Below are positions 17,434 through 55,732 of a stretch of DNA of 64,000 nt, piece after piece; the first letter of the stretch is position 1, and the number at the start of each line of letters is the position of its first letter. Source of the stretch: Hyphomicrobiales bacterium. GTDB lineage: Bacteria > Pseudomonadota > Alphaproteobacteria > Rhizobiales > Devosiaceae. A program made the position numbers and the translations under genes. The DNA lies in contig SEEL01000005.1 in assembly GCA_004144345.1 (NCBI GenBank), positions 62,001 to 126,000 of the forward strand, given 5' to 3'. The notes beneath the pieces were generated by a model. The model worked only from the letters and a program-made list of their open reading frames with translations. It was not told where the DNA came from and searched no databases.

Positions 17434-17447
17434 GTTATAAGGATAAC
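17434..17447. promoter_or_regulatory. Operator site A (GTTATAAGGATAAC), divergent promoter region
   Basis: Perfect GTTAT-N4-ATAAC inverted repeat between 17382(-) and 17477(+); TTGACC at 17416 and TTGACG (reverse) flank it. Confidence 0.75.
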
Positions 17448-17476
17448 CCGATAGCCGTCAAGCGGAGCAGAGTGGA

Positions 17477-18493
17477 ATGACATTGCCGCAACGCTGGGTG
17501 AAGGAGCCGGGAGCGCGCGTCGAAGGATCGCGCGATCTCGATCGCTCCAAGGTGCAGGCGCCCTGTGTGGTGCGCGCGCCCGGCGGCGGCTTTCGACTGT
17601 TCTACACCGCCGTGGGGCCGGGTAAACCCTTCGCCAATTGCCAGGGCTACATCCTCAGCGCGGCATCGACCGATGGGCTGTATTTCACTGCCGAGCCGGG
17701 CATTCGTATCGCGCCCGATCCCGCGGTCATGCAGATGTCCTTGCGTGCCCTCGCACCCAGCATCGCAGCGTTGCCCGAAGGCGGATGGCGGCTCTATTTC
17801 GAGGCGCGCGGCCCGGCGGATATGCCGACCGCAATCATGAGCGCGGTATCGAGCGACCAGCTCGACTGGCGTATCGAACCGGGCGTCCGGTTCACGGCGC
17901 CAGGCGGGACGGGTGCGCCGCGGTTCCTGCCGCTGGACGGCGGCGGCGGACGGCTGTTCTGCTTCGAGTCCGTTTATGCGGGGGGTGATCCGAAGAGCGG
18001 GCCCCGGCTCGGGACGCGGGTCATCAGCGCCAGCACCGGCGACGGTCTCGCCTTTCTGCGCGAGCCCGGCGTCAGGCTGGCCGACAAGTATGACGTCATC
18101 GACAGCGCCGGGATCACGGCAGCTGAAGTTGTTCCCGGCGCGCCGTGGCGGATGGTGTTTTCGGCCTGGCAGGATGTTCCCGAGGGAGCAGTCGTTCCGT
18201 CGCATCCGAGCGTCGATGTTGGAGCGGCGACTACCGACTTCGCGGTAGCGTCTATCGCGGCCGACATGGCCGGCTATCGCTCGCGTATTCTGATGGCCTC
18301 GTCCAATGAGGGTCTCAACTGGACGCGCGACCGGATCATCATCGAGGGCGAGGGCTATGGTGGCGGCGGTATCGATGCCGTGCACGCCGAAGATATGTCG
18401 TTGATCGAGCTCGATGACGGCCGCTGGCGCATGTACTACGCCGCGTGCGACGCGCATGGGGTGTGGCGCGTCGCCAGTGCGATCAGCGCCTAG
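17477..18493 (+). CDS. Five-bladed beta-propeller glycosidase-like protein (GH43/GH32-like), no signal peptide
   Basis: KVQAPCVVRAPGGGFRLFYTAVGPG; repeated RLYFEARG / SSDQLDWRIEPGV / SSNEGLNWTRD / WRMYYAACDAHG blade motifs. Confidence 0.7.
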   Translation: MTLPQRWVKEPGARVEGSRDLDRSKVQAPCVVRAPGGGFRLFYTAVGPGKPFANCQGYILSAASTDGLYFTAEPGIRIAPDPAVMQMSLRALAPSIAALPEGGWRLYFEARGPADMPTAIMSAVSSDQLDWRIEPGVRFTAPGGTGAPRFLPLDGGGGRLFCFESVYAGGDPKSGPRLGTRVISASTGDGLAFLREPGVRLADKYDVIDSAGITAAEVVPGAPWRMVFSAWQDVPEGAVVPSHPSVDVGAATTDFAVASIAADMAGYRSRILMASSNEGLNWTRDRIIIEGEGYGGGGIDAVHAEDMSLIELDDGRWRMYYAACDAHGVWRVASAISA

Positions 18494-19406
18494 GCGGCAG
18501 CCAGTCCGGAAATTTTGCAGCCAGTGTGTCGCGGTAGCGCTCAAACGCCGCCTCGGTGGTGGTCTCGTAGGGCGGCAGCAGGCGCAGCGGAAAGTCCGGT
18601 TCGGTCAGCCGGTGGATCGCCTTGTCATAGGCGCCATCGGCGAAGCTCGTCCCTGTCGCGTCGAGCAAGGCATGCAGCACGCCGCTGAGTTCGCGATAAA
18701 GCTGCGTGAACCGCACCGCATCGCCGCTCGCCCCGGCCCGCAGGTACTCATGCGCCCGTGCCGGATTGCTCGACGAGATCGAGGTCAGCAGGGCGCATTC
18801 GCCGAGCGGAGCGCCGAGATAGTAGCCCTGCTCGGTGAGGAAGTGGCGCAGCTGCGGCGCGTGCTTCATCAGGCCCGAAATCATGAACGGGTCACCGCCG
18901 CCATATTTGGTCGCGACGAGATTGGGGTGGCGGTCGGCCAGTTCCGCGTAGTGAGCGGGGCTGACCAAACGGCCCGACCGCATCAGATTATAGTGCAGGA
19001 ACTTCGCCTCCGGGAACCGGCCGCAGAGTTCGGCGAAGACCCGCTTCATTTCGACGTCGGAAGTGACCGCCCAGTTTGGCAGCGAGAACTGGAAGGTGTT
19101 GATGCCGTTGGCGAGGCCGAACTCGGCACGTTCGATCAGCGTCGCCAGCGACTGGCTGACGAGACCAACCATCGGCGCCGAGCCACCGGCCTCTCGCATG
19201 GTCTCGCTGAACACCAGGGCGACGCGGCGGAACATAGTGTCGGTCATGGCGTAGCCTTCGCCGGCCGTGCCAAAGACATAGAGGTCGGGCAGGCCGCCCT
19301 TCACCAGATTGGTGATGGTGCGCCGGAACAGGGCCTCGTCGAGCGAGCCATCCTCGGCCCAGGGCAGGCACACTGTACCGAGTACGGTGCGCGGGAAGCG
19401 GCTCAT
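18483..19406 (-). CDS. Dihydrodipicolinate synthase/N-acetylneuraminate lyase family protein
   Basis: TVCLPWAEDGSLDEALFRRTITNLVKGGLPDLYVFGTAGEGYAMTD; VATKYGGGDPFMISG. Confidence 0.85.
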   Translation of the reverse strand: MSRFPRTVLGTVCLPWAEDGSLDEALFRRTITNLVKGGLPDLYVFGTAGEGYAMTDTMFRRVALVFSETMREAGGSAPMVGLVSQSLATLIERAEFGLANGINTFQFSLPNWAVTSDVEMKRVFAELCGRFPEAKFLHYNLMRSGRLVSPAHYAELADRHPNLVATKYGGGDPFMISGLMKHAPQLRHFLTEQGYYLGAPLGECALLTSISSSNPARAHEYLRAGASGDAVRFTQLYRELSGVLHALLDATGTSFADGAYDKAIHRLTEPDFPLRLLPPYETTTEAAFERYRDTLAAKFPDWLPPRR

Positions 19407-20098
19407 TTCGCGAACTCGATGGCGATGCGATCGATCTCGACATAGCCCTGCGCGATGCTGGACGGCCAGATCGGGTAGTCGCGTCCGGCACGTAGAATGT
19501 GCGGATCGCCATCTATCCTGCCCATGGGGCGCGGCTTCACCGGGAACATGATGAGATGCATGTTGATGTTGACGTTGCCGAGCACGCTCAGCAGCGGCTT
19601 CTCACCATAGGTGTCGGTGCGGTCATGGCGCGAACCGATGCTGGTCCATTGCGTTTGATCCGGGGCCAATGTGACCGTCTGTTCGCTCCAGTCGGGTGTC
19701 ACGGCGAAGGTCTGCCCAGTGAGTACCCATCCCGAGCAGATGCCGTCGACGCCGCCCTGGATCAGCACTGAGAATTCCGTTCCAGCGGCCTCGAGCTCGC
19801 CGCGGAGGCGCAGCGAGATGCGCGCATTGGTGAAGTCGGTCGGATAATTGCCCTTGGTAAAGCGGTTCTCGCCGGCGACATCGCGCAATTGCTCGCCCGC
19901 GACGCCGCGCGTCACGAGACACATCAGCAGTTGCAGATAGCCGCCGCCCGGTGGCGCATGGTTGTAGTCGACCCACCACGGTCCCTGGCAGCGAACCACG
20001 CCGTCCTTCACCGGCAGCGCGCCAATCGGCGAATAATTGTCGACGACGCGCATCCAGCCGCCCGGCCCATTGTCGAAATCCTCAACATAAGTCGTCAC
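19403..20098 (-). CDS. Hypothetical protein, predicted beta-sandwich/lectin-like
   Basis: GTG start VTTYVEDFDNGPGGWMRVVDNYSP chosen because the upstream ATG (20131) would abut the operator; 4-bp overlap with the dapA-like gene. Confidence 0.6.
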   Translation of the reverse strand: MTTYVEDFDNGPGGWMRVVDNYSPIGALPVKDGVVRCQGPWWVDYNHAPPGGGYLQLLMCLVTRGVAGEQLRDVAGENRFTKGNYPTDFTNARISLRLRGELEAAGTEFSVLIQGGVDGICSGWVLTGQTFAVTPDWSEQTVTLAPDQTQWTSIGSRHDRTDTYGEKPLLSVLGNVNINMHLIMFPVKPRPMGRIDGDPHILRAGRDYPIWPSSIAQGYVEIDRIAIEFAK

Positions 20099-20131
20099 GG
20101 CCGCCCCTCGCCTGCTTGAACTAAATATCAT

Positions 20132-20145
20132 CTTATCATTATAAC
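20132..20145. promoter_or_regulatory. Operator site B (CTTATCATTATAAC)
   Basis: Reverse complement GTTATAATGATAAG; TTGAAC-N17-TTATAA promoter reading towards 20173(+); coordinates +/-1. Confidence 0.7.
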
Positions 20146-20172
20146 AGATAAGCAGGTCAAGCGGGGGGATGG

Positions 20173-21372
20173 ATGGCCAACAGGCACGCGATCATCGTCG
20201 GGGGAGGCGTCACCGGCCTGTCGACGGCCTATCACCTGAAACGCCTCGGCTATGGCGACGTTACGATCTTTGAGAAGGACACGATCGGCGCCGGCTCCAG
20301 CAGTCGCGCCGCAGGGATCTCGACGGGCCTCTTGTGGTCGAAGACCGGCATTCTAGCCCGCAAGACCGCGCTTCGCCGCTTCCGTGAAATGAGCCGGGAG
20401 CTCGATGGCTATGTCTTTCATAATGAACAGGGCTGTCTCGGGCTGTTCAGCCCGGAACTGTGGCCGGGTCGCGAGGCGTTGCTGCCGCTCTATGACGAGT
20501 ATGATGTGCCCTATCAGGTGCTGTCCGCTGCCGAGATCAGGCGGCGATGGCCAATGCTCAACCCGCTGGACGACCATCTCGGCGTGCTCGATCCGCTCGG
20601 CGGCTACAGCGAGCCGCCGGAATATCTGGCGGCGCTCACGGCCAAGCTGAAGCAGCTCGAGGTGCGGATCGTGACGGGCGCGACCGTCGACGGCATCGAG
20701 ACGAAGAATGGCCGCGCCATCGGTGTCCGGACCGAGGGCAGGGTAGTGCAAGGCGATGCCGTGGTCGTCGCCAACTATGCCTGGGTGCTGCCGCTGCTGA
20801 AGACCGTCGACATCTCGATCCCGGCCAAGACGTTTCTCCACCGCCGCTATGTCAGCGCGCCGATGCTCGCGCCATTCGTGGCCCCGCCCGTCAATGCCGA
20901 TCCGTATTTCGGCTATGTCCGTCCCGCCGACGGCAACCGTATCCTTGTGGGCGCGGAAACGCCCGATCTCGACGACATCAAGCTCACCGATTTCCGCGCG
21001 CGCTACGATCAGCTTGAGGACGATCCGAAGCTGCGCGACGAGGTGGTTGGCCGCTTCATCGACTTCGTGCCGGCGATGCGCGGGCTCGACTGGGAGACGC
21101 GCAAGGTCGGGTTGCTGTCCTTCTCGATGGATGGCGAACCGATCCTCGGCCCGTTCGGCGGCATGGAAGGGCTGTTCGTCGGCGTCTGTTTCCACTCGGG
21201 CGGCTTCAGCTACAATCCGGCGTCCGGCTATTACCTCGCTGAGTTCGTCGCGCGCGGCGAGACGTCCATCGACCTCACCGCCTTCTCGCCCGACCGTTTC
21301 GCTGCCGACGAGACGGCTGCCTACGTCGCATCCACCGTACCGCAGCGCAATGCGGCGCGGCGGCGCCACTGA
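20173..21372 (+). CDS. FAD-dependent oxidoreductase, DAO family
   Basis: HAIIVGGGVTGLSTAYHLKRLGYGDVTIFEK; GEPILGPFGGMEGLFVGVCFHSGGFSYNPASGYYLAEFV. Confidence 0.9.
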   Translation: MANRHAIIVGGGVTGLSTAYHLKRLGYGDVTIFEKDTIGAGSSSRAAGISTGLLWSKTGILARKTALRRFREMSRELDGYVFHNEQGCLGLFSPELWPGREALLPLYDEYDVPYQVLSAAEIRRRWPMLNPLDDHLGVLDPLGGYSEPPEYLAALTAKLKQLEVRIVTGATVDGIETKNGRAIGVRTEGRVVQGDAVVVANYAWVLPLLKTVDISIPAKTFLHRRYVSAPMLAPFVAPPVNADPYFGYVRPADGNRILVGAETPDLDDIKLTDFRARYDQLEDDPKLRDEVVGRFIDFVPAMRGLDWETRKVGLLSFSMDGEPILGPFGGMEGLFVGVCFHSGGFSYNPASGYYLAEFVARGETSIDLTAFSPDRFAADETAAYVASTVPQRNAARRRH

Positions 21373-21398
21373 CCCATCGACCTGCCGGAGGATTTGCC

Positions 21399-22427
21399 TT
21401 GAGCGAATATGAGATCAACAGCCTCGATACCCGCATCTGGCAGGAGGAACTCGACGACTTCGTGCCGCAAAAAGTGTTCGATGCGCATGTGCATATCTAT
21501 CGCTGGGCCTTCGACCTCGATCCGAGCAAGGCCACCGGCCCGTTCGCTAATGGCATTGGCGCGATGTTTCCAGAGGTCACTTGGGAGATCGCCGACGAGG
21601 TCGATGCGGCGTTGATGCCGGACCGCGAGATCGAGCGGCTGTCGTTTCCCTTCCCTTTTCCCAACCCCTGCGACTTCGACGGCTCGAACAGCTATGTCGC
21701 GCAGGAGACGTCAAAGGGCGCCGGCAAGAGCCGCTCGCTGATGCTGGTCAATCCCGGCATGAATGCCGCTCAGGTCGAGGCCGCCGCACGCCGTCACGGC
21801 CATATCGGCTTCAAACCCTATCGCTGGTACGCCGATGACCCCGTCGATGGCCGGCTGACCGACTTCATGCCGGAGCACCAGATCGCCGTGGCCGACAAGC
21901 TCGGCCTCGCCATCATGATGCATCTGAGCAAGCGCGACGCCATCGCCGACCCGGCCAATGTCGAGGACATGCTTCGGCTCAGCGACAAATATCCCAACGC
22001 CAAATGGATACTCGCGCATTGCGCCCGCAGCTATTCGGCCTGGGCCATCGAGGCGTCGGCGGCCAAGCTCCGCGGGCTGCCCAATGTCTGGTACGACACC
22101 TCGACCGTCTGCGACTCCGATGCGCTCGATGCGCTCTACACCGGCGTCGGCGTCGATCGCGTGATGTATGGCTCCGACGACATGATCGGGCCGATGCGCG
22201 GCAAGTACATCACCTTCGGCAGGGCCTGGACCGCCCTGTCACCGACCAATCACTCCATGAGCCTTGCCCATTGCGATCCGCGGATGACATTCATCCGCTA
22301 TGAGCAGTTGCGGGCGATGAAGCGGGGCGGCCGGCAGATCGGCCTGACCGCCGCGCATCGGCAGGCACTGTTCTACGACACAGCGCGGGCGCTGGTGGAC
22401 TCGATCCCGGTGCCGCTGCCTCAGTAG
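21399..22427 (+). CDS. Amidohydrolase family protein (amidohydrolase_2 TIM barrel)
   Basis: TTG start; KVFDAHVHIYRW; IMMHLSKRDA; WILAHCARSYSAWAIEA; VMYGSDDM. Confidence 0.85.
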   Translation: MSEYEINSLDTRIWQEELDDFVPQKVFDAHVHIYRWAFDLDPSKATGPFANGIGAMFPEVTWEIADEVDAALMPDREIERLSFPFPFPNPCDFDGSNSYVAQETSKGAGKSRSLMLVNPGMNAAQVEAAARRHGHIGFKPYRWYADDPVDGRLTDFMPEHQIAVADKLGLAIMMHLSKRDAIADPANVEDMLRLSDKYPNAKWILAHCARSYSAWAIEASAAKLRGLPNVWYDTSTVCDSDALDALYTGVGVDRVMYGSDDMIGPMRGKYITFGRAWTALSPTNHSMSLAHCDPRMTFIRYEQLRAMKRGGRQIGLTAAHRQALFYDTARALVDSIPVPLPQ

Positions 22428-24263: not shown

Positions 24264-24264
24264 C

Positions 24265-25173: not shown

Positions 25174-25186
25174 CGTCCGGACCCGA

Positions 25187-26107
25187 TCAGAGCGCGTCGA
25201 GGAAGGCGACGCCGGTGAGCTTGCGCTCATCGCGCAGTTGCCGGAACTCGGCCCTGAGCTTGTCCTCGGCCGCCTGGTCGATGTAGCTGCCGAGCGGCCG
25301 GCGGACATAGCCGGGGTCGCAGCCCTGCCAGGCCATGGCGCGCTTGATGCAGGACACGCCGCCACGCGGCAGCGAGAAGAAGATCACGGCATTGCCGATC
25401 TCCTGCAGGCGCTTGGCCTCGTGCATGTCGCCGCGGGCCACGGCGTCGCGCAGCGCCAGCCAGATTTCCGGCATCGAATTGTAGAACGAACCGATGACGC
25501 CATCGGCGCCGAAGGAGAGGCCGGACATTGCCATCTCGTCGGCGCCCGAGAAGACGACGAAATCTTTGCCGATCTCTTCCTTGATGCGGATGATCTCGTG
25601 ATGTGTGGTCGCCGTGTATTTGACGCCGATCATCCCATCGATGCTCGCGAGGCGCTTGATGATGTCGAAGCCGAGCGCTGCCATCGGCACGTTGTAGGCC
25701 AGCATGGGGAGCGAGGTGGAGGCGGTGATATCGGCGTAGTAGCCGTGGATCTGATCGCCCGAGAACCCCCAGTAGAAGGGCGGGACCGATGAGATGGCGT
25801 CGACGCCGGCCTTCTCGGCGTGCTTGGCGAGATCGATCGACGTATGCGTGCCGATGGCGCCGATATGGGCAATGATCGGAATGCGGCCCTTCACTTCGTC
25901 GACGGTGATTTCGACGACGCGCTTGCGCTCGTCGGACGTCATCAGGAAGGACTCCCCGGTCGAGCCGGTGATGTAGAGCCCCTCGAGCTTGCGCTCGATC
26001 AGGAAATTGATGAGCGCGCGCAGGCGCTTTTCGTCGAGCTGTTCATTCTCGTCAAAAGGCGTGACCATCGCGGGGTAGACACCCGAGAAGGACGTGAACT
26101 TCGGCAT
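25187..26107 (-). CDS. Dihydrodipicolinate synthase/N-acetylneuraminate lyase family protein
   Basis: FSGVYPAMVTPFDENEQLDEKRLRALINFLIERKLEGLYITGSTGESFLMT; LAYNVPMAALGFDI; GVKYTATTHHEIIRI. Confidence 0.92.
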   Translation of the reverse strand: MPKFTSFSGVYPAMVTPFDENEQLDEKRLRALINFLIERKLEGLYITGSTGESFLMTSDERKRVVEITVDEVKGRIPIIAHIGAIGTHTSIDLAKHAEKAGVDAISSVPPFYWGFSGDQIHGYYADITASTSLPMLAYNVPMAALGFDIIKRLASIDGMIGVKYTATTHHEIIRIKEEIGKDFVVFSGADEMAMSGLSFGADGVIGSFYNSMPEIWLALRDAVARGDMHEAKRLQEIGNAVIFFSLPRGGVSCIKRAMAWQGCDPGYVRRPLGSYIDQAAEDKLRAEFRQLRDERKLTGVAFLDAL

Positions 26108-26136
26108 TTTGGCTCCGTTGGAGAATGCGGCCTGCG

Positions 26137-28156: not shown

Positions 28157-28159
28157 GGG

Positions 28160-29095: not shown

Positions 29096-29097
29096 GA

Positions 29098-30057: not shown

Positions 30058-30131
30058 GCAGTTGTCCCGACACTCGGCGATGGGAGAAGGGCGCCGCAAC
30101 CGCGGCCGCGGCGCCCGAAGGAGAAAACTCC

Positions 30132-32599: not shown

Positions 32600-32613
32600 G
32601 TTAACATGACAAC
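32600..32613. promoter_or_regulatory. Operator site C (GTTAACATGACAAC)
   Basis: 29 bp upstream of RraA start; reverse strand CGCTTGACA -35-like box at about 32622-32635. Confidence 0.7.
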
Positions 32614-33600: not shown

Positions 33601-33614
33601 ATTAACATAATAAC
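33601..33614. promoter_or_regulatory. Operator site D (ATTAACATAATAAC), divergent promoters
   Basis: Flanked on both sides by TTGACA: forward TTGACA-N18-CATAAT, reverse TTGACA-N17-TTATGT. Confidence 0.75.
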
Positions 33615-33678
33615 ATGCTTGAATATGTGTCAAGCGGGGATGTCCGGGCGTCCAATGCGCCATTGGGAGGGTATTCTA

Positions 33679-35578: not shown

Positions 35579-35592
35579 GTTAACATAACAAC
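35579..35592. promoter_or_regulatory. Operator site E (GTTAACATAACAAC), divergent promoters
   Basis: Forward TTGACA upstream, reverse TTGACT-N18-TTATGT; extended similarity to site C. Confidence 0.75.
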
Positions 35593-37424: not shown

Positions 37425-37428
37425 GGAT

Positions 37429-39185: not shown

Positions 39186-39209
39186 CGCACTCGAACAGGA
39201 GCACCGAGC

Positions 39210-40031: not shown

Positions 40032-40032
40032 C

Positions 40033-43463: not shown

Positions 43464-43491
43464 TTTTCCGCTTGAAGTCCTATGTTAAGTG

Positions 43492-43505
43492 GTTATCATA
43501 TTAAT
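43492..43505. promoter_or_regulatory. Operator site F (GTTATCATATTAAT), divergent promoters
   Basis: 29 bp from SDR start (-) and 27 bp from deacetylase start (+); reverse TTGAAG-N17-TATATT promoter. Confidence 0.72.
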
Positions 43506-43531
43506 ATACCATAAGGGTACAGGCTCTTCAA

Positions 43532-44707: not shown

Positions 44708-45162
44708 GCGATGATCGCGCCCCACTGCGGTATGAGGAGGACGGCAACGTCCATCTTGATTTCCATGGCGCGGTGAACACGACCATCGATTTCATCGTCC
44801 GGCGCTACGGCGTCGACGTGCTGCACGAGATCTTCCGCCGCGTCGGTACCGACGTCTACCAGGACCTCCGCGGCCATCTCGTCGCCGGCGACAGCAATGA
44901 ACTGGTCCGGCACTGGCAACATTTCTTCACCCGCGAGGGCGCCGATTACGAGATTGCTGTCGGCAGCGACGAGATCGTGCTGACCGTCCGCCGCTGCTCC
45001 GCCTGGCACCACGTGCACAAAATCCATGGCGCCGTCTCGGCGCAGTTCTGCGACCAGACCACCATCGTCAATAACGCCCTGGCGGAGGGCACGCCGTTCC
45101 GCATCGACACGATCATCGACGGTCCCGGCGCCTGCCGTCAGGTGATCAGGAGGCGCGCATGA
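44704..45162 (+). CDS. Small hypothetical protein 1 of an overlapping pair
   Basis: 152 aa; 4-bp overlaps with both neighbours; DVLHEIFRRVGTDVYQDLRGHLVAGDSNELVRHWQHFFTREG. Confidence 0.65.
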   Translation: MSDDRAPLRYEEDGNVHLDFHGAVNTTIDFIVRRYGVDVLHEIFRRVGTDVYQDLRGHLVAGDSNELVRHWQHFFTREGADYEIAVGSDEIVLTVRRCSAWHHVHKIHGAVSAQFCDQTTIVNNALAEGTPFRIDTIIDGPGACRQVIRRRA

Positions 45163-45647
45163 TCCCGTCCGATCACTTCACCCGCTTCTACAACGAGGTG
45201 TTCAAATACCTCGAAGGTCTGGGCGAGAAAGAAATCGACGACTATTTTCTCGAGATCAGCAAGAACCAGGAAAACCACATCCTCCACCTCATTCGCGAGA
45301 AGGGGTTCGAGGGCATGATGCAGTACTGGAGTGTGATCCGCGACGAGGAGAATTGCGAGCTGGACCTCGGCTATGACGAGGACAAGTTCGAGATCAAGAT
45401 GCATCTCTGCCCCAGCCTCACCAAGGCCAAGGACAATGATGCCGAGCGCTGGGAGCGCTATTGCGACCATTGTGCCGGCTGGATCGGGCCGATCATGGAC
45501 AAGACCGGCTACCACCTCGTCTATGACGTGATCGACCGCGACCAGCCGCAGTGCCACATGCGTGTCTTCAAGGATGAGGCGAAGGCGCGCGAAGCCGAAA
45601 TGGACGTGCGCCTGCTGATGGGATGGCCCGGCCGCAAGCAAGACTGA
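45159..45647 (+). CDS. Small hypothetical protein 2 (possible ATC-hydrolase-like, CDHC motif)
   Basis: 162 aa; HLCPSLTKAKDNDAERWERYCDHCAGWIGPIMDKTGYHLVYDVIDRDQPQCHMRVF. Confidence 0.6.
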   Translation: MIPSDHFTRFYNEVFKYLEGLGEKEIDDYFLEISKNQENHILHLIREKGFEGMMQYWSVIRDEENCELDLGYDEDKFEIKMHLCPSLTKAKDNDAERWERYCDHCAGWIGPIMDKTGYHLVYDVIDRDQPQCHMRVFKDEAKAREAEMDVRLLMGWPGRKQD

Positions 45648-45669
45648 CGCCTAGGTTCTGGGGGAGACG

Positions 45670-46689
45670 ATGGCCGAACTGCGCCTTGCCATACTCGGCT
45701 CTGGCTATATGGGGCGAACCCATGCCGAGTGCATCACCAAACACGTGACGCGAACGCGTCTCGTCGCCATCGCCGGTGGACGCCGCGCACCGGCGCTCGC
45801 TGCCGACTATGGCGCTGCTTTCGAGCCGAGCTTCGACGCGCTGCTCGCCCGCAGCGATGTCGACGCCGTACTGATCGCGACGCCCCACGCGGACCACTGC
45901 ACGCAGGTCGTCGCCGCCGCGGCCGCCGGCAAGCATGTGCTGGTTGAAAAGCCGATGGCGACCAGCGTCGCCGATTGCACGACCATGATCGAGGCTTGCG
46001 CGCGGGCCGGTGTGCGGCTCGAAGTGATCCAGACGCAGCGCTTTCGCGGCGCCATCTCGCGCACCCGCGATCTGGTCGCCAGCGGCGCCATCGGCCGCGT
46101 CCGCATGTTCGAGGGCCGCTCGCTGTTCACCGATTATGTCGTCGACCAGAGCCCATGGGCCGGTGAAGCGGAGCAGGGCGGGGCCTTCCTCGATACCGGC
46201 GTCCATTTCTACGATCTGATGCGCTTCGTGCTTGGCGCTGAAGCGGAGAGCATCTTCGCCACAGTGCGCACCTTCGGCGATGTCCCCTATCCGGGCCTCA
46301 ACGCCATGAGCCAGATCCGCTTTGCGGGCGGCATCATCGCCCAGCACTGGATGAGCTACCAGATGCCCTCGCCGAGCCTGCCCAATTCGCAGCACCGCTA
46401 CGTCATCGTCGGCGAGACCGGCACGATCGATGTCGATGCCTATGGCAAGGTGCAAATGGCGAGGGACGGCGAGTGGCAGACCGTCTGGGAGCAGCCGCCC
46501 ATCGACTACATCAACCGGCCGCTCGATCCGGTGCGGCTGGCGGCGTTCTTCGGCCAGACGCAGGCTTTCGTCGACGACGTGCTCGATGGACGGCCCGACA
46601 CGGTGTCGGGCGCTGACGGCCGCGCCGCCGTCGCGCTGGTGATGGGCGCCTGGGCGTCGTCGCGCTCCGGCTTGCCGGTCAAGCTCTAG
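45670..46689 (+). CDS. Gfo/Idh/MocA family oxidoreductase
   Basis: RLAILGSGYMGRTHAECITKHV; DVDAVLIATPHADHCTQVVAAAAAGKHVLVEKPMATSVAD. Confidence 0.94.
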   Translation: MAELRLAILGSGYMGRTHAECITKHVTRTRLVAIAGGRRAPALAADYGAAFEPSFDALLARSDVDAVLIATPHADHCTQVVAAAAAGKHVLVEKPMATSVADCTTMIEACARAGVRLEVIQTQRFRGAISRTRDLVASGAIGRVRMFEGRSLFTDYVVDQSPWAGEAEQGGAFLDTGVHFYDLMRFVLGAEAESIFATVRTFGDVPYPGLNAMSQIRFAGGIIAQHWMSYQMPSPSLPNSQHRYVIVGETGTIDVDAYGKVQMARDGEWQTVWEQPPIDYINRPLDPVRLAAFFGQTQAFVDDVLDGRPDTVSGADGRAAVALVMGAWASSRSGLPVKL

Positions 46690-46698
46690 GGGATAGAC

Positions 46699-47814
46699 AT
46701 GCGAATTGTTGCGTCGGGCTATCTGGGCCGCGCCGAACCGGGCACCGGCCGGGCCAATCTCACCTTCCCGATGGCCCTGAGCCTCGCCGATGGCACATTG
46801 ATCGCGACGCTGCGTTCCGGCCCGGACAAGGATTCTGCCGCCGATAGCATCGAACTCTATCGCTCCACCGACAATGGCGCGACCTGGACCGGTCCCGACT
46901 ACCCGTTCGTCGCGCCCGATTTGGACGGCGTCGGCGGCTCGCTCAAGATCTGTTACCTGACCGAACTCCGCCCCGGCCGGCTGATCGCCGCCGCCATGTG
47001 GATCGACCGCACCACCTATCCCGGCCAGCCGCTGTTCAATGCCGAGACCGAAGGCTGCCTGCCGATGTCGATCCTCGTTGCCGACTCCGTCGACAATGGC
47101 GCGAGCTGGAGCGACTGGCGCCACATTCCGATGCCCGACTGGATCGGGCCTGCGAGCCTGACCAGCCCGCTGCTCAAGCTCAGCGATGGCCGCCTCGCGA
47201 TGAGCATCGAAACCAACAAGCCCTATCTTGACCGCTCGAAATGGCAGCAGCGCGCCGTCTATTTCCATTCGTCCGACGACGGGCAGAGCTGGTCGGCGCC
47301 GGTCACGGTGGCCGAGGATTCGACGGGCCGTATCTTCAACTGGGATCTGCGCGCCGCCGTCGCCCCCGATGGGCGGGTCGCCTCCTTCGCCTGGACCTAT
47401 GACAGCCAGACCAGCACCTATCTCGATATCCACCGCCGTATCAGCAGTGATGGCGGTATGAGCTGGACCTCGCCGGAACCCATCGGCGTGTCCGACCAGG
47501 CGGCGCGCCCGGCGATCCGCAAGGATGGCAGCATGGTCCTCGCCTGGGTCGACCGCTTCGGCACCAAATCGATCCGCGCCCGCTACGCCCCGGCCATCGA
47601 CGCGCCGTTCGATCCCGCCAGTGAAGTGGTGATCTACACCCATGGCGCCGGCGAAGCGGCGAGCGCCGATACCGGCGATATGCTCGCCAGCATGGACCTC
47701 TGGAGTTTCGGACTGCCCTTCGCCGAAGTGCTGCCCAATGGCGAGGTGCTCGTCTTCTACTATGCCGGCGAACCCAAGGCGCTCGACGTCCGCTGGGCGC
47801 GGCTCGCCGTCTAG
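46699..47814 (+). CDS. BNR/Asp-box sialidase-like protein, no signal peptide
   Basis: Asp boxes STDNGATWTGP, SVDNGASWSDW, SSDDGQSWSAP, SSDGGMSWTSP. Confidence 0.88.
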   Translation: MRIVASGYLGRAEPGTGRANLTFPMALSLADGTLIATLRSGPDKDSAADSIELYRSTDNGATWTGPDYPFVAPDLDGVGGSLKICYLTELRPGRLIAAAMWIDRTTYPGQPLFNAETEGCLPMSILVADSVDNGASWSDWRHIPMPDWIGPASLTSPLLKLSDGRLAMSIETNKPYLDRSKWQQRAVYFHSSDDGQSWSAPVTVAEDSTGRIFNWDLRAAVAPDGRVASFAWTYDSQTSTYLDIHRRISSDGGMSWTSPEPIGVSDQAARPAIRKDGSMVLAWVDRFGTKSIRARYAPAIDAPFDPASEVVIYTHGAGEAASADTGDMLASMDLWSFGLPFAEVLPNGEVLVFYYAGEPKALDVRWARLAV

Positions 47815-50072
47815 CGCCGCGTCAGCAGCACCTTGCGCACCGACAGGGCCAGCAGCACGAGCAGCGCGCGATGCGGCTTTTCGATCTGTCTCGTGCCCTG
47901 CAGTAGTTGCAGGACCAGCGCCGCATCGGCATGGCCGGCTGTCTCGATCCGCGGCGCCAGCGCCTGTATCGCCGTGAACGCCTCATGCGTCTCGCCGGTA
48001 CTGGCGCCAAGCGCCGAGCCCTTGATCAGCGCGCTGAGTTCCGCCGATTGCTTGCCGGGCATGCGCCGTACCGTCCAGGCCAACCGCTCGATCAGTCTCG
48101 GTAGCCGTTGCCCGAGGATGCGCTCCTCGAGCCGCCACTCGCGCGAGAAGCCCTCCTCGAGCCCGAGGATCTTGGCCAGCGCCAGCAGCACCACCTTGCT
48201 GCGCGGCTCATCCGATGCGCTGGTGTCGTCGGCGGCCAACTGCGCATAGATCGCCACGAGATCGCCAACGCTCGGCGTATCGCCATATTTGCCGAGCGCC
48301 GACACCGCGGCCAGCCGGCAATTGATCTCGGAATCGTCACGCAGCATCTGCCGGATGCGCGGCAGGTAAGTCTCGTTGCGGATTTCGCCGAGCGAGCGGA
48401 TGGCGCGGGCGCGGAGCAGGGCGCTCGGGCTGTCGAGGAAGCTGGCGATCTTGCCGCTGCTCTCCTTGGCCCGGAGCCGGCCCAGCGAGGTCAGTGCCGC
48501 ATATTGTAGCTCCTCGAGTCCGTCATAGGTCAGCATCGACTCGAGCGCCCGGATCACTGCTGGCCCGGGGGGCAGGCGGCCGAGCGACTGGATGGCTTCA
48601 TGCCGGACATCGAAGCTCGGATCGGAGAGCGCGGCGATCAGCTCTTCCTTGACCAGCGCACTGCGGGTGCCGCCGAAGCCATAGGTCAGTTCCTGCCGCC
48701 GCTCCTCGGAGGTCAGCGCGCCATAGCGCGGAATGGCAAGCAGCGCGCGGATGGCGCTGCCGCTGCCGAAATTGGCGAAGAAGGCGCGCACGCCCGTCGC
48801 CCCGTCTTCCTTGAGGGCCGCGAAGGCGAGCGCCGAGGTGGCGACGACCACGGCGCACAGCGTGAACAGTGCCTCGTAGCTGTCGATGGTCACGCCCATG
48901 ATGGTAGGCGTGTTGGCGTCGAGGAACTGCAGCAGGAAGCCGGCAAGGAACGTGGCGCCGCCGCCGATGATGCCGTCGCTGGCATAGGCCAGCGTCATGT
49001 AGTTTTCCTTGTGGGCCGGCGGCACGTAGTTGAGCATGTAGATGCTGCCCACAGTGATACTGGACTGGAACAGCATCCCCGTCAGGAAGAAGATCGAGCC
49101 GGCGACGATCTCTGGGAAGGCGACGCCCGGATGGACCAGCAACAGGCTCAGCAGCAGCACCACCTGCCAGCTTTGCAGCGTGACGCGGATGGCGCGGGTG
49201 CCGTAGCGATCGACGAACCAGCCGGCGACGAGGGCGCCGACGGCGCCGCCCACCGGCACCAGCGCGATCAGCATCACGAGCTGGCCGGAACTGAGGCCCA
49301 GCCGGTCGCGGAAGAACAGCACGAGGAACAGATTCATCGCCGTGTAGGCGAAATACTGCGTGCCCGAGGAATAGAGGAACAGCCAGAAATTGCCGTCGCG
49401 CATCGGCGTGCGCATGGCGCGGATGGCGCGCAGTCCGCGCGGCGAATCCGGCCGCGGATTGCCACCCCGCAAGCCGATCAGGCTGAGCACGCTGGTGAGG
49501 CCGAACAGCGCGCCGATGACGAAGACGGGGAAGTAGCGCTCGATGCCGGCGCTGCTGTCGAGCCAGAGCTGGATCAGCACCGAGCCGCCCAGTGCCACGG
49601 GCAGGATGGCGAGCGAGACGATGCCATTGATGCGGCCGCGCATCTGCCGGGGCATGTATTCCTGCGCCCACGGATAGATGGCGGTTTCGGCGAGGGTGCG
49701 GGCGATGGAGAAGCCGATCATGCTGCCAAAGAGCAGCCAGAACGCCCCGTCGGGCGAACCCATCATGGGCGCCAGCAGCCAGGGCAGCACAAAGAAGTAG
49801 CGGGCGGCATAGGCCGCGCCGGTGATGAAGCGCTGGCTGTAGGCCATGATCAGCGGCAGGAAGGCGATACACAGCACCTGCGCGAAGGGCATGATGCCGG
49901 CGAGCATGCCGATGCGGCCCTTCTCGATGCCCAACTCGGCGGCGTAGAGCGCGAGCGGTGAGTTCACCGTGCACACCAGCGCCGCCATGTTGAGCACGTT
50001 GAAGGCGTAGAGATAGGGAACGCGGCGCAGTTTGTCGTAGTCCGACTGCACGCCCGCCGCCTGCCTGTTCAT
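47811..50072 (-). CDS. MFS transporter fused to C-terminal HEAT-repeat domain
   Basis: 753 aa; N-terminal about 430 aa strongly hydrophobic MFS-like (VGGAVGALVAGWFVDRYGTRAIRVTL); C-terminus with repeats ALSDPSFDVRHEAIQSLGRL, LEELQYAALTSLGRLRA, SPSALLRARAIRSLGEI, DSEINCRLAAVSALGKYGD. Confidence 0.85.
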   Translation of the reverse strand: MNRQAAGVQSDYDKLRRVPYLYAFNVLNMAALVCTVNSPLALYAAELGIEKGRIGMLAGIMPFAQVLCIAFLPLIMAYSQRFITGAAYAARYFFVLPWLLAPMMGSPDGAFWLLFGSMIGFSIARTLAETAIYPWAQEYMPRQMRGRINGIVSLAILPVALGGSVLIQLWLDSSAGIERYFPVFVIGALFGLTSVLSLIGLRGGNPRPDSPRGLRAIRAMRTPMRDGNFWLFLYSSGTQYFAYTAMNLFLVLFFRDRLGLSSGQLVMLIALVPVGGAVGALVAGWFVDRYGTRAIRVTLQSWQVVLLLSLLLVHPGVAFPEIVAGSIFFLTGMLFQSSITVGSIYMLNYVPPAHKENYMTLAYASDGIIGGGATFLAGFLLQFLDANTPTIMGVTIDSYEALFTLCAVVVATSALAFAALKEDGATGVRAFFANFGSGSAIRALLAIPRYGALTSEERRQELTYGFGGTRSALVKEELIAALSDPSFDVRHEAIQSLGRLPPGPAVIRALESMLTYDGLEELQYAALTSLGRLRAKESSGKIASFLDSPSALLRARAIRSLGEIRNETYLPRIRQMLRDDSEINCRLAAVSALGKYGDTPSVGDLVAIYAQLAADDTSASDEPRSKVVLLALAKILGLEEGFSREWRLEERILGQRLPRLIERLAWTVRRMPGKQSAELSALIKGSALGASTGETHEAFTAIQALAPRIETAGHADAALVLQLLQGTRQIEKPHRALLVLLALSVRKVLLTRR

Positions 50073-50109
50073 CTTCTACCCCCGCGACCTTGTCAGCCGC
50101 CCATTCGCT

Positions 50110-51186
50110 CTAGAGTTGTAGCCGGTAAGTCTTGATGACGTATTGGCTGTTCTCGAAACTCCAGCACGCCGCAAGAATCTCGCCGCTCGCCAGCCGCAGT
50201 AGCGAGGGCTGGCCGAATTTGAGGCTGGCGAACTGCTTCCTAATGTCGGCGCTGTCGCTGGCCATGTCCGTCTTGCCGAGCAGGTCGAGTTCCTCTTCCA
50301 CCCTGAAGCTGCCACCGCTCAGATCGACCCGGCGTACCACCAGCCCGATCGGCGCTTCGCGATGCGCGTGGATGGTCAGCACTCTGTCGCCGCCAAGCGG
50401 CAGGACGTTCGAGGCCTGTCCGTGGACACCCGTCTCGATGCTGCGGAAGGTCTCGCCGCCATCGTCGGACAGTGCGAGGATATTGTCGCGATTGGCGCCG
50501 GTCGCATTGTCATAGGCCCAGGCGATCACCGCGACCTTGCCCGGGGACATCTCGCACAGCCGGCATTCCCAGGTCGCGACATTGGTCTCTGCCGAGCGGT
50601 AGAACTCCGACAGCTTGAACCAGCTGCGGCCCTTGTCGTCGCTGGCGATGATCCAGCCGGCATGGCCGGTCTTCTTGAGATGGAAAGGCGCCGTTGCGCC
50701 GAGCAGCCGCCCCGATGCCAGCTCGATGCAGGGGCCGGACAGTTCAAGCGGTTCGCCCTCGACGCTGAAGTACTCGGGCTCGCTCCAGCTCTTCCCGCCA
50801 TCCGACGAGAAGGCGACTTTGTTGCGCAGCTTCAGCAGTTCGAAGCTGTCTGGATCGACCACCGGCGTCGTCGGCGTTGGCCGCACGAACACATAGCCGG
50901 TGGCGACCATGCTGCCGTCGCGCAGCAGCAGCGGCTTGAAGCTCTCCGACTCCTCCGGCACCGCTTCCTTGTGCGACAGCCGGTACGGCTCGCTCCAGCT
51001 TTTCCCCTCATCGCTGCTGCGGCTCACATAGGCACGCGTGTCGGCGGCGTCGAAGGCCTGCCCGATCGTGAACAGCGCCACCAGTTCGCCATCGGCCAAT
51101 TGCACGATGCCGGGAAAGATCGCCTGCCGGCTGACCAGCAGCGGCGCGGGGTTCTGGTAGAGGGTGGTTTCGTCCAGCTTCTTCAT
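50110..51186 (-). CDS. BNR/Asp-box sialidase-like protein, close paralog of 33679..34761
   Basis: LYQNPAPLLVSRQAIFPGIVQLADGELVALFTIGQAFDAADTRAYVSRSSDEGKSWSEP; SSDGGKSWSEP; LSDDGGETF. Confidence 0.87.
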   Translation of the reverse strand: MKKLDETTLYQNPAPLLVSRQAIFPGIVQLADGELVALFTIGQAFDAADTRAYVSRSSDEGKSWSEPYRLSHKEAVPEESESFKPLLLRDGSMVATGYVFVRPTPTTPVVDPDSFELLKLRNKVAFSSDGGKSWSEPEYFSVEGEPLELSGPCIELASGRLLGATAPFHLKKTGHAGWIIASDDKGRSWFKLSEFYRSAETNVATWECRLCEMSPGKVAVIAWAYDNATGANRDNILALSDDGGETFRSIETGVHGQASNVLPLGGDRVLTIHAHREAPIGLVVRRVDLSGGSFRVEEELDLLGKTDMASDSADIRKQFASLKFGQPSLLRLASGEILAACWSFENSQYVIKTYRLQL

Positions 51187-51196
51187 GTCTGTCCTC

Positions 51197-52042
51197 TCAG
51201 GCGAAGGGGTTGGACCAGCGGCGATACTCGCCGGGTGTCTTGCCGCGCCGGTCGCGGAACGCGGCGCTCAGCGTCGCCGCATGGCGGTAGCCGACGGCCT
51301 CGGCGATCTCGACCAGCGTCTTGTCTGTACCGACGATCAGTTCCTCGGCCCGCGTCAGCCGGAGTTCGCGCAGATGCTCGCCGGCCGATGTGTGCCAAGC
51401 CAGCCGGTGCATGGCGCGCAGCGTGCTCTCCGACACGCCGAGCAGCGCCGCCACATCCGACAGCGTGCGCATCCGATGCAGATTTTGCCCGGCCTGCCGC
51501 CACGCCGCCGCCAGCCGGCCATCGACTGTGCTGGCCGCTGCCGGTGCTGCCGGCGCAAAGCCATCGAGCAGCGACAGCAGTAGCCGCTTCCGCCGCGCCA
51601 GATCGTCCGCCCGGTCGTGCCGCGCCAGCTCCATGGCGAGCTTTAGCATGTTCTGGACATGCAGCGCCTCGCCCGGTCGCGGCAACAGCCAGCCCGGCCC
51701 CTCGTGATACCCCGCCAGTTCGAAGTGACAGATCGAGGCCGTCGCGAAGGCTCCCGATGTCTCGCCCCGGAACAGCGTTCCGGGCAGGATCAGCACGCCG
51801 GCGGGCGCCACCAGATCGAGCGCCGCATCGTGCTCGGGAAAGCTCAGCCGCGCCCCGCCCTCGTGCAGCCAGAACAGGTCGTGGAAAGGCCATCGCACGG
51901 GTCCGATCGGCATCCGCCGGTTGATACGCCCGAAGCGGTGGTCGCCGAGCGTAACGTCTTCCAGCTGTGCGTCATGCGGCATGGCGGCGACAAGCCTCGG
52001 CAGGGCAGGGGCAATCGGAATTCCTAACAAGCCGCCAATCAC
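51197..52042 (-). CDS. AraC family transcriptional regulator
   Basis: C-terminal LRELRLTRAEELIVGTDKTLVEIAEAVGYRHAATLSAAFRDRRGKTPGEYRR (HTH_AraC). Confidence 0.92.
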   Translation of the reverse strand: MIGGLLGIPIAPALPRLVAAMPHDAQLEDVTLGDHRFGRINRRMPIGPVRWPFHDLFWLHEGGARLSFPEHDAALDLVAPAGVLILPGTLFRGETSGAFATASICHFELAGYHEGPGWLLPRPGEALHVQNMLKLAMELARHDRADDLARRKRLLLSLLDGFAPAAPAAASTVDGRLAAAWRQAGQNLHRMRTLSDVAALLGVSESTLRAMHRLAWHTSAGEHLRELRLTRAEELIVGTDKTLVEIAEAVGYRHAATLSAAFRDRRGKTPGEYRRWSNPFA

Positions 52043-52115
52043 CGATGGTGACGGCGGGGCGGCGAAGGCGTCTCATGCCCCTTGGAAGTGTCATTCCAGC
52101 ACGAGGGAGTTGCCG

Positions 52116-52898
52116 ATGAGCCTTGCCAAGAGCGCGCCGAACGATGCCGCGGCGCTGAAACGGGACTTCGACCGCGACGGCTACATCGCCATCCGGCCGC
52201 TGTTCGATGCCGCCAAGATGGCCGAGATCAACCGCGAGCTCGACCGCTATTTGCGCGATGCGGTGCCCCGCATGAAGGACACCGAGGTCTATTACGAGGA
52301 CAAGGCCGACCGCACCTCGGTCAAGCAGATGATGTATCTCGAAAAATACGACGACTATTTCGCCGAGCTGCTGCAGTCGGGCGTCGTCTACGATCTCGCC
52401 GAGACGGTGCTCGGCGAGCGCGCCATCCCGCAGAACATGGAATATTTCAACAAGCCGCCGGGCATCGGCAAGCCGACGCCGCCGCATCAGGACGGCTATT
52501 ACTTCAAGATCGCGCCGCCCCAGGCCATCACCGGCTGGCTCGCGCTCGAGCCCGTCGATGACGAGAATGGCTGCCTCAACTACGTGCGCGGCTCGCACCG
52601 CGGCGAGGGCTGGCGGCCGCATGGCCGGTCCAACATCCTCGGCTTCTCGCAGGGTGTCACCGATTTCGGCACGCCCGACGATGTCGCCAACACCGTCCCC
52701 CAGCCGGGCAGCGCCGGCATGATGCTGATGCATCATTGCAAGACCGTGCATTGGGCCAGCCCCAACCGCTCGCCGACGCGCTCCCGCCGCGCCTTGGGCT
52801 TCGTGTTCTTCGGCGAAAGCGCCCGTCCCGACGAAGAAGCCAAGCGCGCCTACCAGGCAAAGCTCGACGCCGAGCTGGCCGCGGCCGGCAAGATCTAG
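52116..52898 (+). CDS. Phytanoyl-CoA dioxygenase (PhyH) family protein
   Basis: Start MSLAKSAPNDAAALKRDFDRDGYIAIRPLFD; PPHQDGYYFKIAPPQAITGWLALEPVDDENGCLNYVRGSHR; HHCKTVHWASPNRS. Confidence 0.9.
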   Translation: MSLAKSAPNDAAALKRDFDRDGYIAIRPLFDAAKMAEINRELDRYLRDAVPRMKDTEVYYEDKADRTSVKQMMYLEKYDDYFAELLQSGVVYDLAETVLGERAIPQNMEYFNKPPGIGKPTPPHQDGYYFKIAPPQAITGWLALEPVDDENGCLNYVRGSHRGEGWRPHGRSNILGFSQGVTDFGTPDDVANTVPQPGSAGMMLMHHCKTVHWASPNRSPTRSRRALGFVFFGESARPDEEAKRAYQAKLDAELAAAGKI

Positions 52899-52959
52899 AG
52901 CATCAGAACGGCGGCGGTGCCCCCGGAAGGGCGCCGCCGTCCTGCGCGCCGCCACTGCG

Positions 52960-54456
52960 TCAGGCCAGCGCAATGGTCTTCCCCTTGAGCTTGCGATAGG
53001 GCAGGCGAGGGAGATTGCTCGTGCACAGGCCCGCGCTGTCGACATTGAAGCTGGCGCGCGCGATCGGCCCATAGGCGTCGCGATGCGACACCGCCGCTTT
53101 CACCACCACATAGATCGCGTCTTCGGGGCGGATGCCTTGCGAATGCAACTGGCCCAGATCCATCGGCGGCATCTTGCGGCTCGACAGCAGGATTTTCGCC
53201 TGCTCGTTCTCGATCACGGCACAGGGACCCATCTCGGCATGGGTGCCGAGCATCGAGGCCAGATGCGAGGTCTTGAGCTCAAGCTCGAAGCTGCCATCGG
53301 TCAGATTGACGACGCGCCCGCTGAACGCAACCGGGCTGCCGTGATGCGCGTCCGTCTTGCCCCCAATCTCCAGCGACACGCTGGCGCCGAGCCCGGCTGC
53401 CACGCATTGCGCCACCGCCGCGGGATCGGCGAGCGCCGCGACGATGCCGCGCCGTCCGCTGGCGAGCAGCGGCCCGAGCAGATCCGTCGCATCGCCCGGC
53501 GTGCCGCCGCCGATATTGTCCGCCGGCTCGACCAGCAGCACCGGCCCCGTGCCCGGCGGCAAGGCGTCGATCGCGGCCAGCACCTCGTCCAGCGCCGCAT
53601 CGCGCGGATAGCCCTTGGCGATGTTCTGCTTCAGCACCCCGGCGAGGTCATGCAGATAGGCCCGCGCCCGCTCGGGGTCGCCCCGCGTCGAGGCGCTCAG
53701 GCTGAAGCCGCAATCGGGCACGTCGGCATAGGCATAGCCCGCCATCACGTTGATATTGACGATCTCGGAATCCGCCGCTTCGATGGCGCGAGCCGCCGCC
53801 AGCACCGCCCTCATCGGATCGTCGGCCGACCCGACCCCGGTCGGCGGCAGCACATAGGGCGTCGGCAGATGCACCTGCGCGACGCCCGGGCGCTCCATCA
53901 ACTCGCCCAGGATGCGCGCCGCGCGCACCGCCGCGTCATGCGCGTCGCGGTGCGGGTTCTCCCGATAGGCGACAGCGACGCTGCAATTGTCGATGAGCTT
54001 CTGCGGCACGTTGGCATGCAGGTCGAGCACGCAGACCACTGGCACGTCGATCCGCGCCTTGGCGAGCAACGTCTGGATGTCGGCGAGGATGTCCGCTTCG
54101 GGATGGTTCGAGCTGGCGCTTACCCCCGCGCCATGCAGCACGAGGTAGATGCCGTCGAGACCCCCTGCCTCCTGTTCCAGCGCCGGAAAGAAATGCCGGC
54201 GGAAGAGCTCGACCGCCGCGTCCTCGACTACGCCGCCCGGCATCGCCGCCATCTGGATGGTGGGCACGATCTCCCAGCCGGCCGCCTCGGCCACGCTGAT
54301 AAAGCCGGCGCTCGGCGAGCCATTGCCGCGATTGCGGGAAACTGCCGCGTCGCCGACATGCAGCGCCATCGACTCGAAATCGGCAACCGTCGTGTGCTGA
54401 CTGAGGAACGTGTGCGTCTCGTGGAAGAAGCCGCCGAACAGCACCCGCTTAGTCAT
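52960..54456 (-). CDS. M81 family metallopeptidase (MlrC/microcystinase C-like)
   Basis: MTKRVLFGGFFHETHTFLSQHTTVADFE; VCVLDLHANVPQKLIDNCSVAVAYRENPHRDAHDAAVRA; DNIGGGTPGDATDLL. Confidence 0.9.
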   Translation of the reverse strand: MTKRVLFGGFFHETHTFLSQHTTVADFESMALHVGDAAVSRNRGNGSPSAGFISVAEAAGWEIVPTIQMAAMPGGVVEDAAVELFRRHFFPALEQEAGGLDGIYLVLHGAGVSASSNHPEADILADIQTLLAKARIDVPVVCVLDLHANVPQKLIDNCSVAVAYRENPHRDAHDAAVRAARILGELMERPGVAQVHLPTPYVLPPTGVGSADDPMRAVLAAARAIEAADSEIVNINVMAGYAYADVPDCGFSLSASTRGDPERARAYLHDLAGVLKQNIAKGYPRDAALDEVLAAIDALPPGTGPVLLVEPADNIGGGTPGDATDLLGPLLASGRRGIVAALADPAAVAQCVAAGLGASVSLEIGGKTDAHHGSPVAFSGRVVNLTDGSFELELKTSHLASMLGTHAEMGPCAVIENEQAKILLSSRKMPPMDLGQLHSQGIRPEDAIYVVVKAAVSHRDAYGPIARASFNVDSAGLCTSNLPRLPYRKLKGKTIALA

Positions 54457-54476
54457 CTGCATCTCCACCCTGTTAT

Positions 54477-54490
54477 GTGATTATGATAAC
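54477..54490. promoter_or_regulatory. Operator site G (GTGATTATGATAAC)
   Basis: 21 bp upstream of M81 start; reverse TTGACG-N17-TAATCA promoter spans it. Confidence 0.7.
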
Positions 54491-54535
54491 CAGCTACCGA
54501 CGTCAAACGGCTCGGTCCGTGTCCGCTGACTTCAA

Positions 54536-55690
54536 TCAGGGGCTCGCCGCGGCAGCGATCTCCAGCCGGTTCCACGCCAGATAACGCGCCCCGTCGGGTT
54601 GGCAGCTGTAGAAGAAGGCGAGCCACGTCCCGCCTGGCTCGGCCGCAAACGCCGGATAGCCGCATTGGTACTCGCCGGTCAGCTTCGTCCCATGCGGATC
54701 GACCAGCGTCACGGGCGCGCTCCACTGCCTGGCATCCGCCGCGCCGACGCGGATTTCGACGCCGGGCTCGACGCTCGCATCGGCCACGAAGCGCCGCGAT
54801 CCGAGCAGCAATCGGCCGTCCGCCGTCCGGACCACCACCGGCGACATCCCCGAAAAGCCGATCCGCGCATAGGCGGTCCAGCTCGCGCCCTCATCGGCCG
54901 AGTACGCCACAAACAGCGCCAGTTCCTGGTCGCCATCGACGCCCTGCTGCCGGAGCACCGCGAGGAGCCGGCCATCGCCGAGTTGCACCACCGAGGTTTC
55001 GTTGAATCCGTCCGTCGCATTGTGCGGCCGGAAGTCCGGATCGTCATGGCGCGAGAAATCGGCGACCCCGTGGTCCGTCTGGCCCGTATCGCCGTTCTCG
55101 ACATATTTGCCGGTCATCCGCGCCTCAGGGTCGAAGGCGATGGTGCTCTTCACCGTCCAGTTCCGCCCGCCGTCGCGCGACGCCAGCAGGGCCGAGCGCC
55201 AGCGCTCACCGGAACGATATTCGCCCCACACCGGCCAGAGCAGCTCGCCGCTCGCCAGTTCGAGCATGTCGCCGTAGACGGCAGGGCGGTCGAAATCGAT
55301 CGCGACCTTTATCGGCTCAGACCAGCGCGCGCCGTCATCCGTCGATTCGACCAGCCGCAGCGCCAACAGGCACCCCTCGATGCCGCGACCCTTCTGCCAG
55401 GTGACCGTATTGTAGGGCAGCAGCAGCCGGCCATCGCGAAGTCGCGTCAGCCCGATCGCCCCGAGCGCCGCATCTTCGCCGGGCGCCGGCCGCGCGACGA
55501 TCTGCGCCGCCTCCCAGCTCCTGCCGCCATCGGCCGTACGCCGCACACCAACCGTCCCCCCGGGCCATCCGTCGGGGACGGTGGAATAGGCGATCACGAT
55601 GCCTGACGGCGTTACGGCGCAACCGGGAAACATCGATGGCGACCCCATCGCCACCCCCGAACCGATAACGCGAACCGCCGCCTGCCCCAT
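54536..55690 (-). CDS. BNR/Asp-box sialidase-like protein, no signal peptide
   Basis: Start MGQAAVRVIGSGVAMGSPSMFPGC after GAGGGAT RBS; Asp boxes TADGGRSWEAA, STDDGARWSEP, SRDGGRNWTVK, SADEGASWTAY. Confidence 0.88.
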   Translation of the reverse strand: MGQAAVRVIGSGVAMGSPSMFPGCAVTPSGIVIAYSTVPDGWPGGTVGVRRTADGGRSWEAAQIVARPAPGEDAALGAIGLTRLRDGRLLLPYNTVTWQKGRGIEGCLLALRLVESTDDGARWSEPIKVAIDFDRPAVYGDMLELASGELLWPVWGEYRSGERWRSALLASRDGGRNWTVKSTIAFDPEARMTGKYVENGDTGQTDHGVADFSRHDDPDFRPHNATDGFNETSVVQLGDGRLLAVLRQQGVDGDQELALFVAYSADEGASWTAYARIGFSGMSPVVVRTADGRLLLGSRRFVADASVEPGVEIRVGAADARQWSAPVTLVDPHGTKLTGEYQCGYPAFAAEPGGTWLAFFYSCQPDGARYLAWNRLEIAAAASP

Positions 55691-55718
55691 GAAACATCCC
55701 TCAATGAACAATTATATG

Positions 55719-55732
55719 GTTATAAGGATAAC
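55719..55732. promoter_or_regulatory. Operator site H (GTTATAAGGATAAC within ATGGTTATAAGGATAACCAT)
   Basis: 8-bp arms of a perfect inverted repeat at 55716..55735; core identical to site A; reverse TTGACC just upstream. Confidence 0.78.

Follow-up and report, generated by a model that had tools for sequence, protein, structure and literature searches.

The 64,000-nucleotide window analyzed here (the whole stretch of DNA from contig SEEL01000005.1 of a Devosiaceae bacterium) harbors a large catabolic cluster in which eight copies of a short palindrome, designated sites A to H, are located at the heads of most transcription units. We consider it highly probable that these sites are the operators of one dedicated repressor, which is encoded within the cluster and released by a cluster metabolite, and the cluster would very probably be switched on and off as one unit. 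The cluster, the proposed repressor and the sites with the units that they head are as follows.

9375-55711: catabolic cluster of ~15 transcription units, 13 of them headed by a site, outlined from open reading frames (ORFs) and Pfam annotation
41725-42720 (-): proposed repressor, 331 aa, with a GntR-type winged helix-turn-helix and a LacI/AraR-type sensor domain
17434-17447 (+): site A, GTTATAAGGATAAC, heading the leftward unit 17382 to 9375 and the rightward gene 17477-18493; flanked on each side by a -35-like box; position kept in the nearest relative (G006)
20132-20145 (-): site B, GTTATAATGATAAG, heading the leftward unit 20131 to 18483 and the rightward unit 20173-22427
32600-32613 (-): site C, GTTGTCATGTTAAC, heading the leftward unit 32571 to 22421 (RraA-like protein, SBP5, Opp ABC transporter, NanA-like lyase, FMN dehydrogenase, hexapeptide transferase); box on the expected side only
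33601-33614 (-): site D, GTTATTATGTTAAT, heading an NAD-epimerase gene, 32777-33565 (-), and a BNR propeller gene, 33619-34761 (+)
35579-35592 (-): site E, GTTGTTATGTTAAC, heading an NAD-epimerase gene, 34758-35540 (-), and the rightward unit 35653-41313
43492-43505 (+): site F, GTTATCATATTAAT, heading the regulator unit 43463 to 41314 (SDR, GntR-type regulator, RidA) and the rightward unit 43532-47814
54477-54490 (-): site G, GTTATCATAATCAC, heading an MlrC-like M81 metallopeptidase gene, 52960-54468 (-); box on the expected side only
55719-55732 (+): site H, GTTATAAGGATAAC, heading a BNR propeller gene, 54536-55711 (-); weaker equivalent in G006, GTTATGAGCATAAC

An earlier note on this DNA had described the eight sites in a 5-4-5 format, and a check of the window sequence confirmed all eight 14-mers at exactly these coordinates and orientations, A and H being one identical sequence. 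The note had also placed the sites 21-65 bp from start codons, which holds for B, G and H only if internal starts are assumed, as their longest ORFs begin 1-8 bp from the site. In a leave-one-out test of a position weight matrix (PWM) built from the eight sites, each ranked among the top 8 positions of the window, with scores of 20.8-22.5 against 11.3 for the next best position. The degenerate consensus GTTRTNATRWTAAY, with up to two mismatches allowed, gave 17 strand-matches in the window (GC content 65%) versus 1.5 ± 1.4 in shuffled sequences.

A key question is whether the motif is specific to the cluster. The PWM scan was confined to the window, and specificity was assessed genome-wide by pattern searches. 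Sites A and H are the only two occurrences of the strict form GTTAT-N4-ATAAC in the 4.1-Mb genome. With at most one mismatch, GTTRTNATRWTAAY recovered the eight sites and two other places, one inside a diguanylate-cyclase ORF (L007) and one inside a methyl-accepting-chemotaxis-protein frame (L010), and no intergenic copy was found in the ~4.05 Mb beyond the cluster at this threshold. The earlier note had noticed no equivalent sites in the flanking housekeeping regions, and a similar motif density in unrelated intergenic regions, which it named as a possible refutation, was not seen.

The second refutation considered there, a lack of conservation in orthologous clusters, was not observed either. 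Regions of 20-100 kb around the regulator gene were fetched from 18 further genomes belonging to three families, and the cluster proteins were mapped on them. In G006, whose regulator is 88% identical, a site is present at all eight positions (H weakly), and the sites of the two genomes are 95% identical compared with 75% for the 60-bp flanks. Sites recur in the 17 other genomes, across the three families; where genes have been moved and inverted, they are still found at divergent gaps and unit heads. Over the 19 genomes, sites scoring at least 16.5 numbered 68 in 476 kb of cluster DNA versus 4 in 1,188 kb of flanks. Site F is kept in every fetched relative, the Kaistia group included, and in most relatives an equivalent of site E precedes the Gfo/Idh unit. 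All that remains of the cluster in the Kaistia-group genomes is one divergon (SDR-regulator on one side, NagA-like amidohydrolase and two small proteins on the other), with the sole strong operator in its middle. Related genomes with one, two, three, seven or eight operators form a natural series for studying the growth or shrinkage of a regulon. The two small adjacent proteins (44704-45162 and 45159-45647, both +), for which no Pfam match was obtained even at an E value of 5, have kept their place beside the regulator divergon in most relatives, those of the Kaistia group among them.

The pooled sites revealed an operator longer than the 5-4-5 core, which itself stood. In 60 non-redundant sites read in both orientations, T was present at -6 in 86/120 cases and A at -5 in 104/120, although these flank columns played no part in site selection; A or T was favored at -2 and T at -1. 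Conserved TA boxes on either side would extend the operator to about 30 bp, roughly RHTAT-NAT-GTTAT-CAT-GATAAC-ATN-ATADY, that is, four half-sites with an 8-bp period. Additional neighboring half-sites at 7-12 nt have been reported for the GntR family (PMC4494728). As in the FadR, HutC and YtrA subfamilies of GntR regulators, the palindrome is situated near the middle of divergent gaps, although divergent sites are almost never used by YtrA-type regulators (PMC4494728); the present case differs from these subfamilies in its LacI-type sensor and in the lack of a GT-(short)-AC core, since GT and AC are separated by 10 bases, with an AT core between them, and the pattern NyGTNxACNy, which was tested, is not matched.

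The TTGAC/TTGAA -35-like boxes that had been noted beside the sites do exist: in the window, a TTGA[CA] box at -26 to -14 was found on 13/13 site sides with a downstream gene versus 0/3 without one. Across the pooled sites, the first base of these boxes most often lies 20 bp ahead of the palindrome (29/120 strands), and therefore the -10 hexamer falls inside the palindrome. One bound protein per divergent gap would cover both -10 regions, a geometry that favors occlusion without demonstrating it.

These data suggest the following mechanism. The regulator would bind the ~30-bp operators lying over the -10 region of the controlled promoters; at divergent gaps, where one operator spans the overlapping -10 regions, a single bound protein would block both promoters. 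The position of site F upstream of the regulator's own unit predicts negative autoregulation. A substrate or intermediate of the cluster, probably a sugar-like acid or amino-sugar derivative, would bind the sensor and free the protein from DNA, and this release would de-repress 13 of the ~15 units together. Of the earlier proposal of one local regulon under coordinated occlusion-type repression, the regulon agrees with the specificity, conservation and co-occurrence (see below) of the sites, whereas repression rather than activation, like binding, the inducer and autoregulation, is what we infer from sequence. The same protein could act at the same sites as an activator or dual regulator, a reading that draws on the ability of some regulators with LacI-type sensors to activate; we assign it a low probability, because an operator that overlaps the -10 region and covers both promoters at divergent gaps is in a polymerase-blocking position, and AraR, the regulator of closest architecture, is a repressor.

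Another important question is which protein recognizes the sites. The regulator gene is present in 10 of the 19 genomes of the genus (a weak partial 28% match in G009 was scored as absent), and the exact motif was found in 10/10 genomes with the gene versus 0/9 without it (Fisher P = 1.1e-5). At the family level, a motif match was obtained in 27/27 genomes with the gene versus 28/109 without it (Fisher P = 1.6e-13); several of these 28 genomes are AT-rich, and a reversed control pattern matches in them as often or more. The best matches of the regulator are in Devosia, those in Kaistia being more distant. A second regulator of the same cluster, the AraC-type protein encoded at 51200-51982, overlooked in the earlier note and conserved in most relatives, might bind the sites instead of the GntR-type protein, but we regard this as very unlikely. 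AraC-type proteins usually bind direct repeats; a palindrome was sought in the gap between the AraC-type gene and its divergent neighbor PhyH, and none is there; and the sites and the GntR-type gene are kept in G116, G117 and four genomes of the Kaistia group, whose fetched regions yielded no AraC-type gene. This candidate was rejected on its absence from these six site-bearing regions. Because of this absence and the lack of a palindrome in the AraC-type gene's own gap, the GntR-type protein appears to be the best candidate, an assignment supported by the co-occurrence and by the Kaistia-group genomes that keep only the regulator divergon and its operator.

Least credible of all is the possibility that the palindromes are merely back-to-back -10 promoter elements with no dedicated regulator: the core does hold TATNAT on both strands, 16-18 bp after TTGAC boxes, but ordinary promoters should recur throughout the genome and the motif does not, conservation extends to the outer GTT/AAC and to the TA boxes at -6/-5, where no promoter element is expected, the palindrome is also present at sites C, G and H, which serve one direction only, and the motif tracks the regulator gene across genomes, so that this reading was rejected on the genome-wide rarity and the conserved outer boxes.

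As modeled, the proposed repressor is a chimera of a GntR-type winged helix and a LacI-type sensor; its assignment to the GntR family in the earlier note was correct for the former, while the latter had been overlooked. Pfam GntR (PF00392) matches the N-terminus with an E value of 8.9e-5 and a score of 22.5, NCBIfam HutC/PhnR profiles match the helix-turn-helix, and the GntR-type regulator with PDB entry 3by6 is nearest to this region in sequence. The AlphaFold2 model (pLDDT 83) displays a winged helix (helices and wing) at residues 13-76 followed by an alpha/beta domain, and the top Foldseek matches of the model are LacI-family sensor domains, with the AraR effector domain 3tb6 at rank 27. 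The helix-turn-helix is nearly invariant across 22 orthologues, in agreement with an operator that scarcely varies.

AraR of Bacillus subtilis, which has been described as chimeric (PMC4494728) and whose DNA contacts and regulon are known (PMC4218819, PMC4494728), has the same domain order, a GntR winged helix followed by a LacI/GalR-type sensor, and likewise several palindromic operators at catabolic promoters in a local sugar-type regulon. The differences are considerable. Sequence similarity was detected in the helix-turn-helix only (E 0.06), the AraR operators are unlike those described here in sequence and spacing, and no arabinose pathway genes were recognized among the ORFs and Pfam annotation of the cluster. 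Residues E30, R41 and R45 of AraR, which make or support base contacts (PMC4218819), are replaced here: they align with Q39, L50 and I54, of which Q39 and L50 are invariant and I54 nearly so in the 22 orthologues. The recognition helix thus lacks the usual arginines.

Several points weigh against the proposed regulon. Two units have no site. The genomes compared are related, so the P values for co-occurrence overstate their independence. The Pfam GntR score is beneath the gathering cutoff (22.5 vs 27). The operator is without the usual short-spaced GT...AC boxes of the GntR family (PMC4494728), and for this reason the link between regulator and operator is drawn from co-occurrence and position, not from known contacts. 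In the relatives, a strict TTGA[CA] box was present on 43/83 gene-bearing sides versus 1/5 sides without a gene (Fisher P = 0.36), so that good support for the promoter geometry comes only from the window and from the peak at -20.

Taken together, the sequence evidence gives good support to a new local regulon; its general kind is known, and its regulator-operator pair appears unusual. A literature search for a described regulon of such a kind in Devosia returned nothing relevant. A broader view is put forward only tentatively, as we think it somewhat less probable than its opposite: the regulator may represent a novel branch of GntR/LacI chimeric repressors, which read a 30-bp operator (four half-sites with an 8-bp period) through an arginine-free, near-invariant recognition helix, probably in the form of two dimers or with contacts from both helix and wing, and whose regulon ranges from one autoregulated divergon in the Kaistia group to a Devosia set of eight operators that spans 46 kb and co-controls a sialic-acid-like catabolic pathway. 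Read as one regulon, the cluster joins ~45 genes of poor annotation in a single functional unit whose inducer can be tested, and a single reporter could serve to seek the substrate of a large cluster common to many Devosia relatives. An unusual recognition helix paired with an unusual operator is also useful for the rules of DNA recognition in the GntR family.

Transcription units were delimited by strand and gap. The statement that the sites cover almost all of them stands for 13 of the ~15; it fails for the AraC-type/BNR/MFS unit and the divergent PhyH gene.

51200-51982 (-): second regulator, AraC family (Pfam HTH_18), heading a unit with a BNR gene (50110-51186) and an MFS-HEAT gene (47811-50072)
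52110-52898 (+): PhyH (phytanoyl-CoA dioxygenase-like) gene, divergent from the AraC-type gene

This divergent pair is kept in 12 of the relatives. A reading of 47811-54468 as a single leftward unit was rejected, since the relatives show that it contains the AraC-type gene and, in the opposite orientation, the PhyH gene. That two units beside an AraC-type regulator are left out suggests a second layer of control, and the palindrome-free pair could possibly constitute it. The MFS transporter of this unit (47811-50072, -; 753 aa) is fused to HEAT repeats. At the left edge, the end of the site-A unit (9375-14661; SDR, hypothetical protein, amidohydrolase, GNAT and DAO oxidase) looks like a lineage-specific extension because nothing equivalent is present in the G006 cluster, which is otherwise collinear. 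At the right edge, a tRNA-Ser (TGA) gene (55805-55894, -) lies ~70 bp past site H and is a possible island boundary.

The gene content indicates that the inducer or substrate is perhaps a sialic-acid-like compound or an amino-sugar acid. This is suggested by a NanA-like lyase (25187-26107, -), in which the equivalents of Y137, K165, D191, E192 and S208, which we take to be the specificity residues of N-acetylneuraminate lyase in its numbering, are kept by alignment; by a NagA-like deacetylase (43532-44707, +) adjoining the regulator; and by sialidase-like BNR propellers, epimerases, Gfo/Idh oxidoreductases, aminotransferases and a peptide/opine-type ABC transporter. The NanA similarity of the lyase is beneath the curated family cutoffs. 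The sialic-acid/N-acetylglucosamine regulons (NanR, NagR/YvoA) share the NanA-like lyase, the NagA-like deacetylase and the sialidase-like BNR propellers with this cluster; NanR and NagR differ from the regulator described here in sensor domain and operator.

One additional observation concerns the solute-binding protein encoded at 30132-31754 (-), which appears to be circularly permuted relative to family-5 proteins of the DppA/OppA/NikA type: residues 26-241 match the C-terminal half of the family and residues 318-536 the N-terminal half. Its AlphaFold2 model (pLDDT 55) is too poor to confirm the permutation, and a literature search for naturally permuted family-5 binding proteins returned nothing relevant. 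Its cluster orthologues in 13 genomes align with it almost end to end and without a change of order, while other family-5 genes in the vicinity match in the opposite order.

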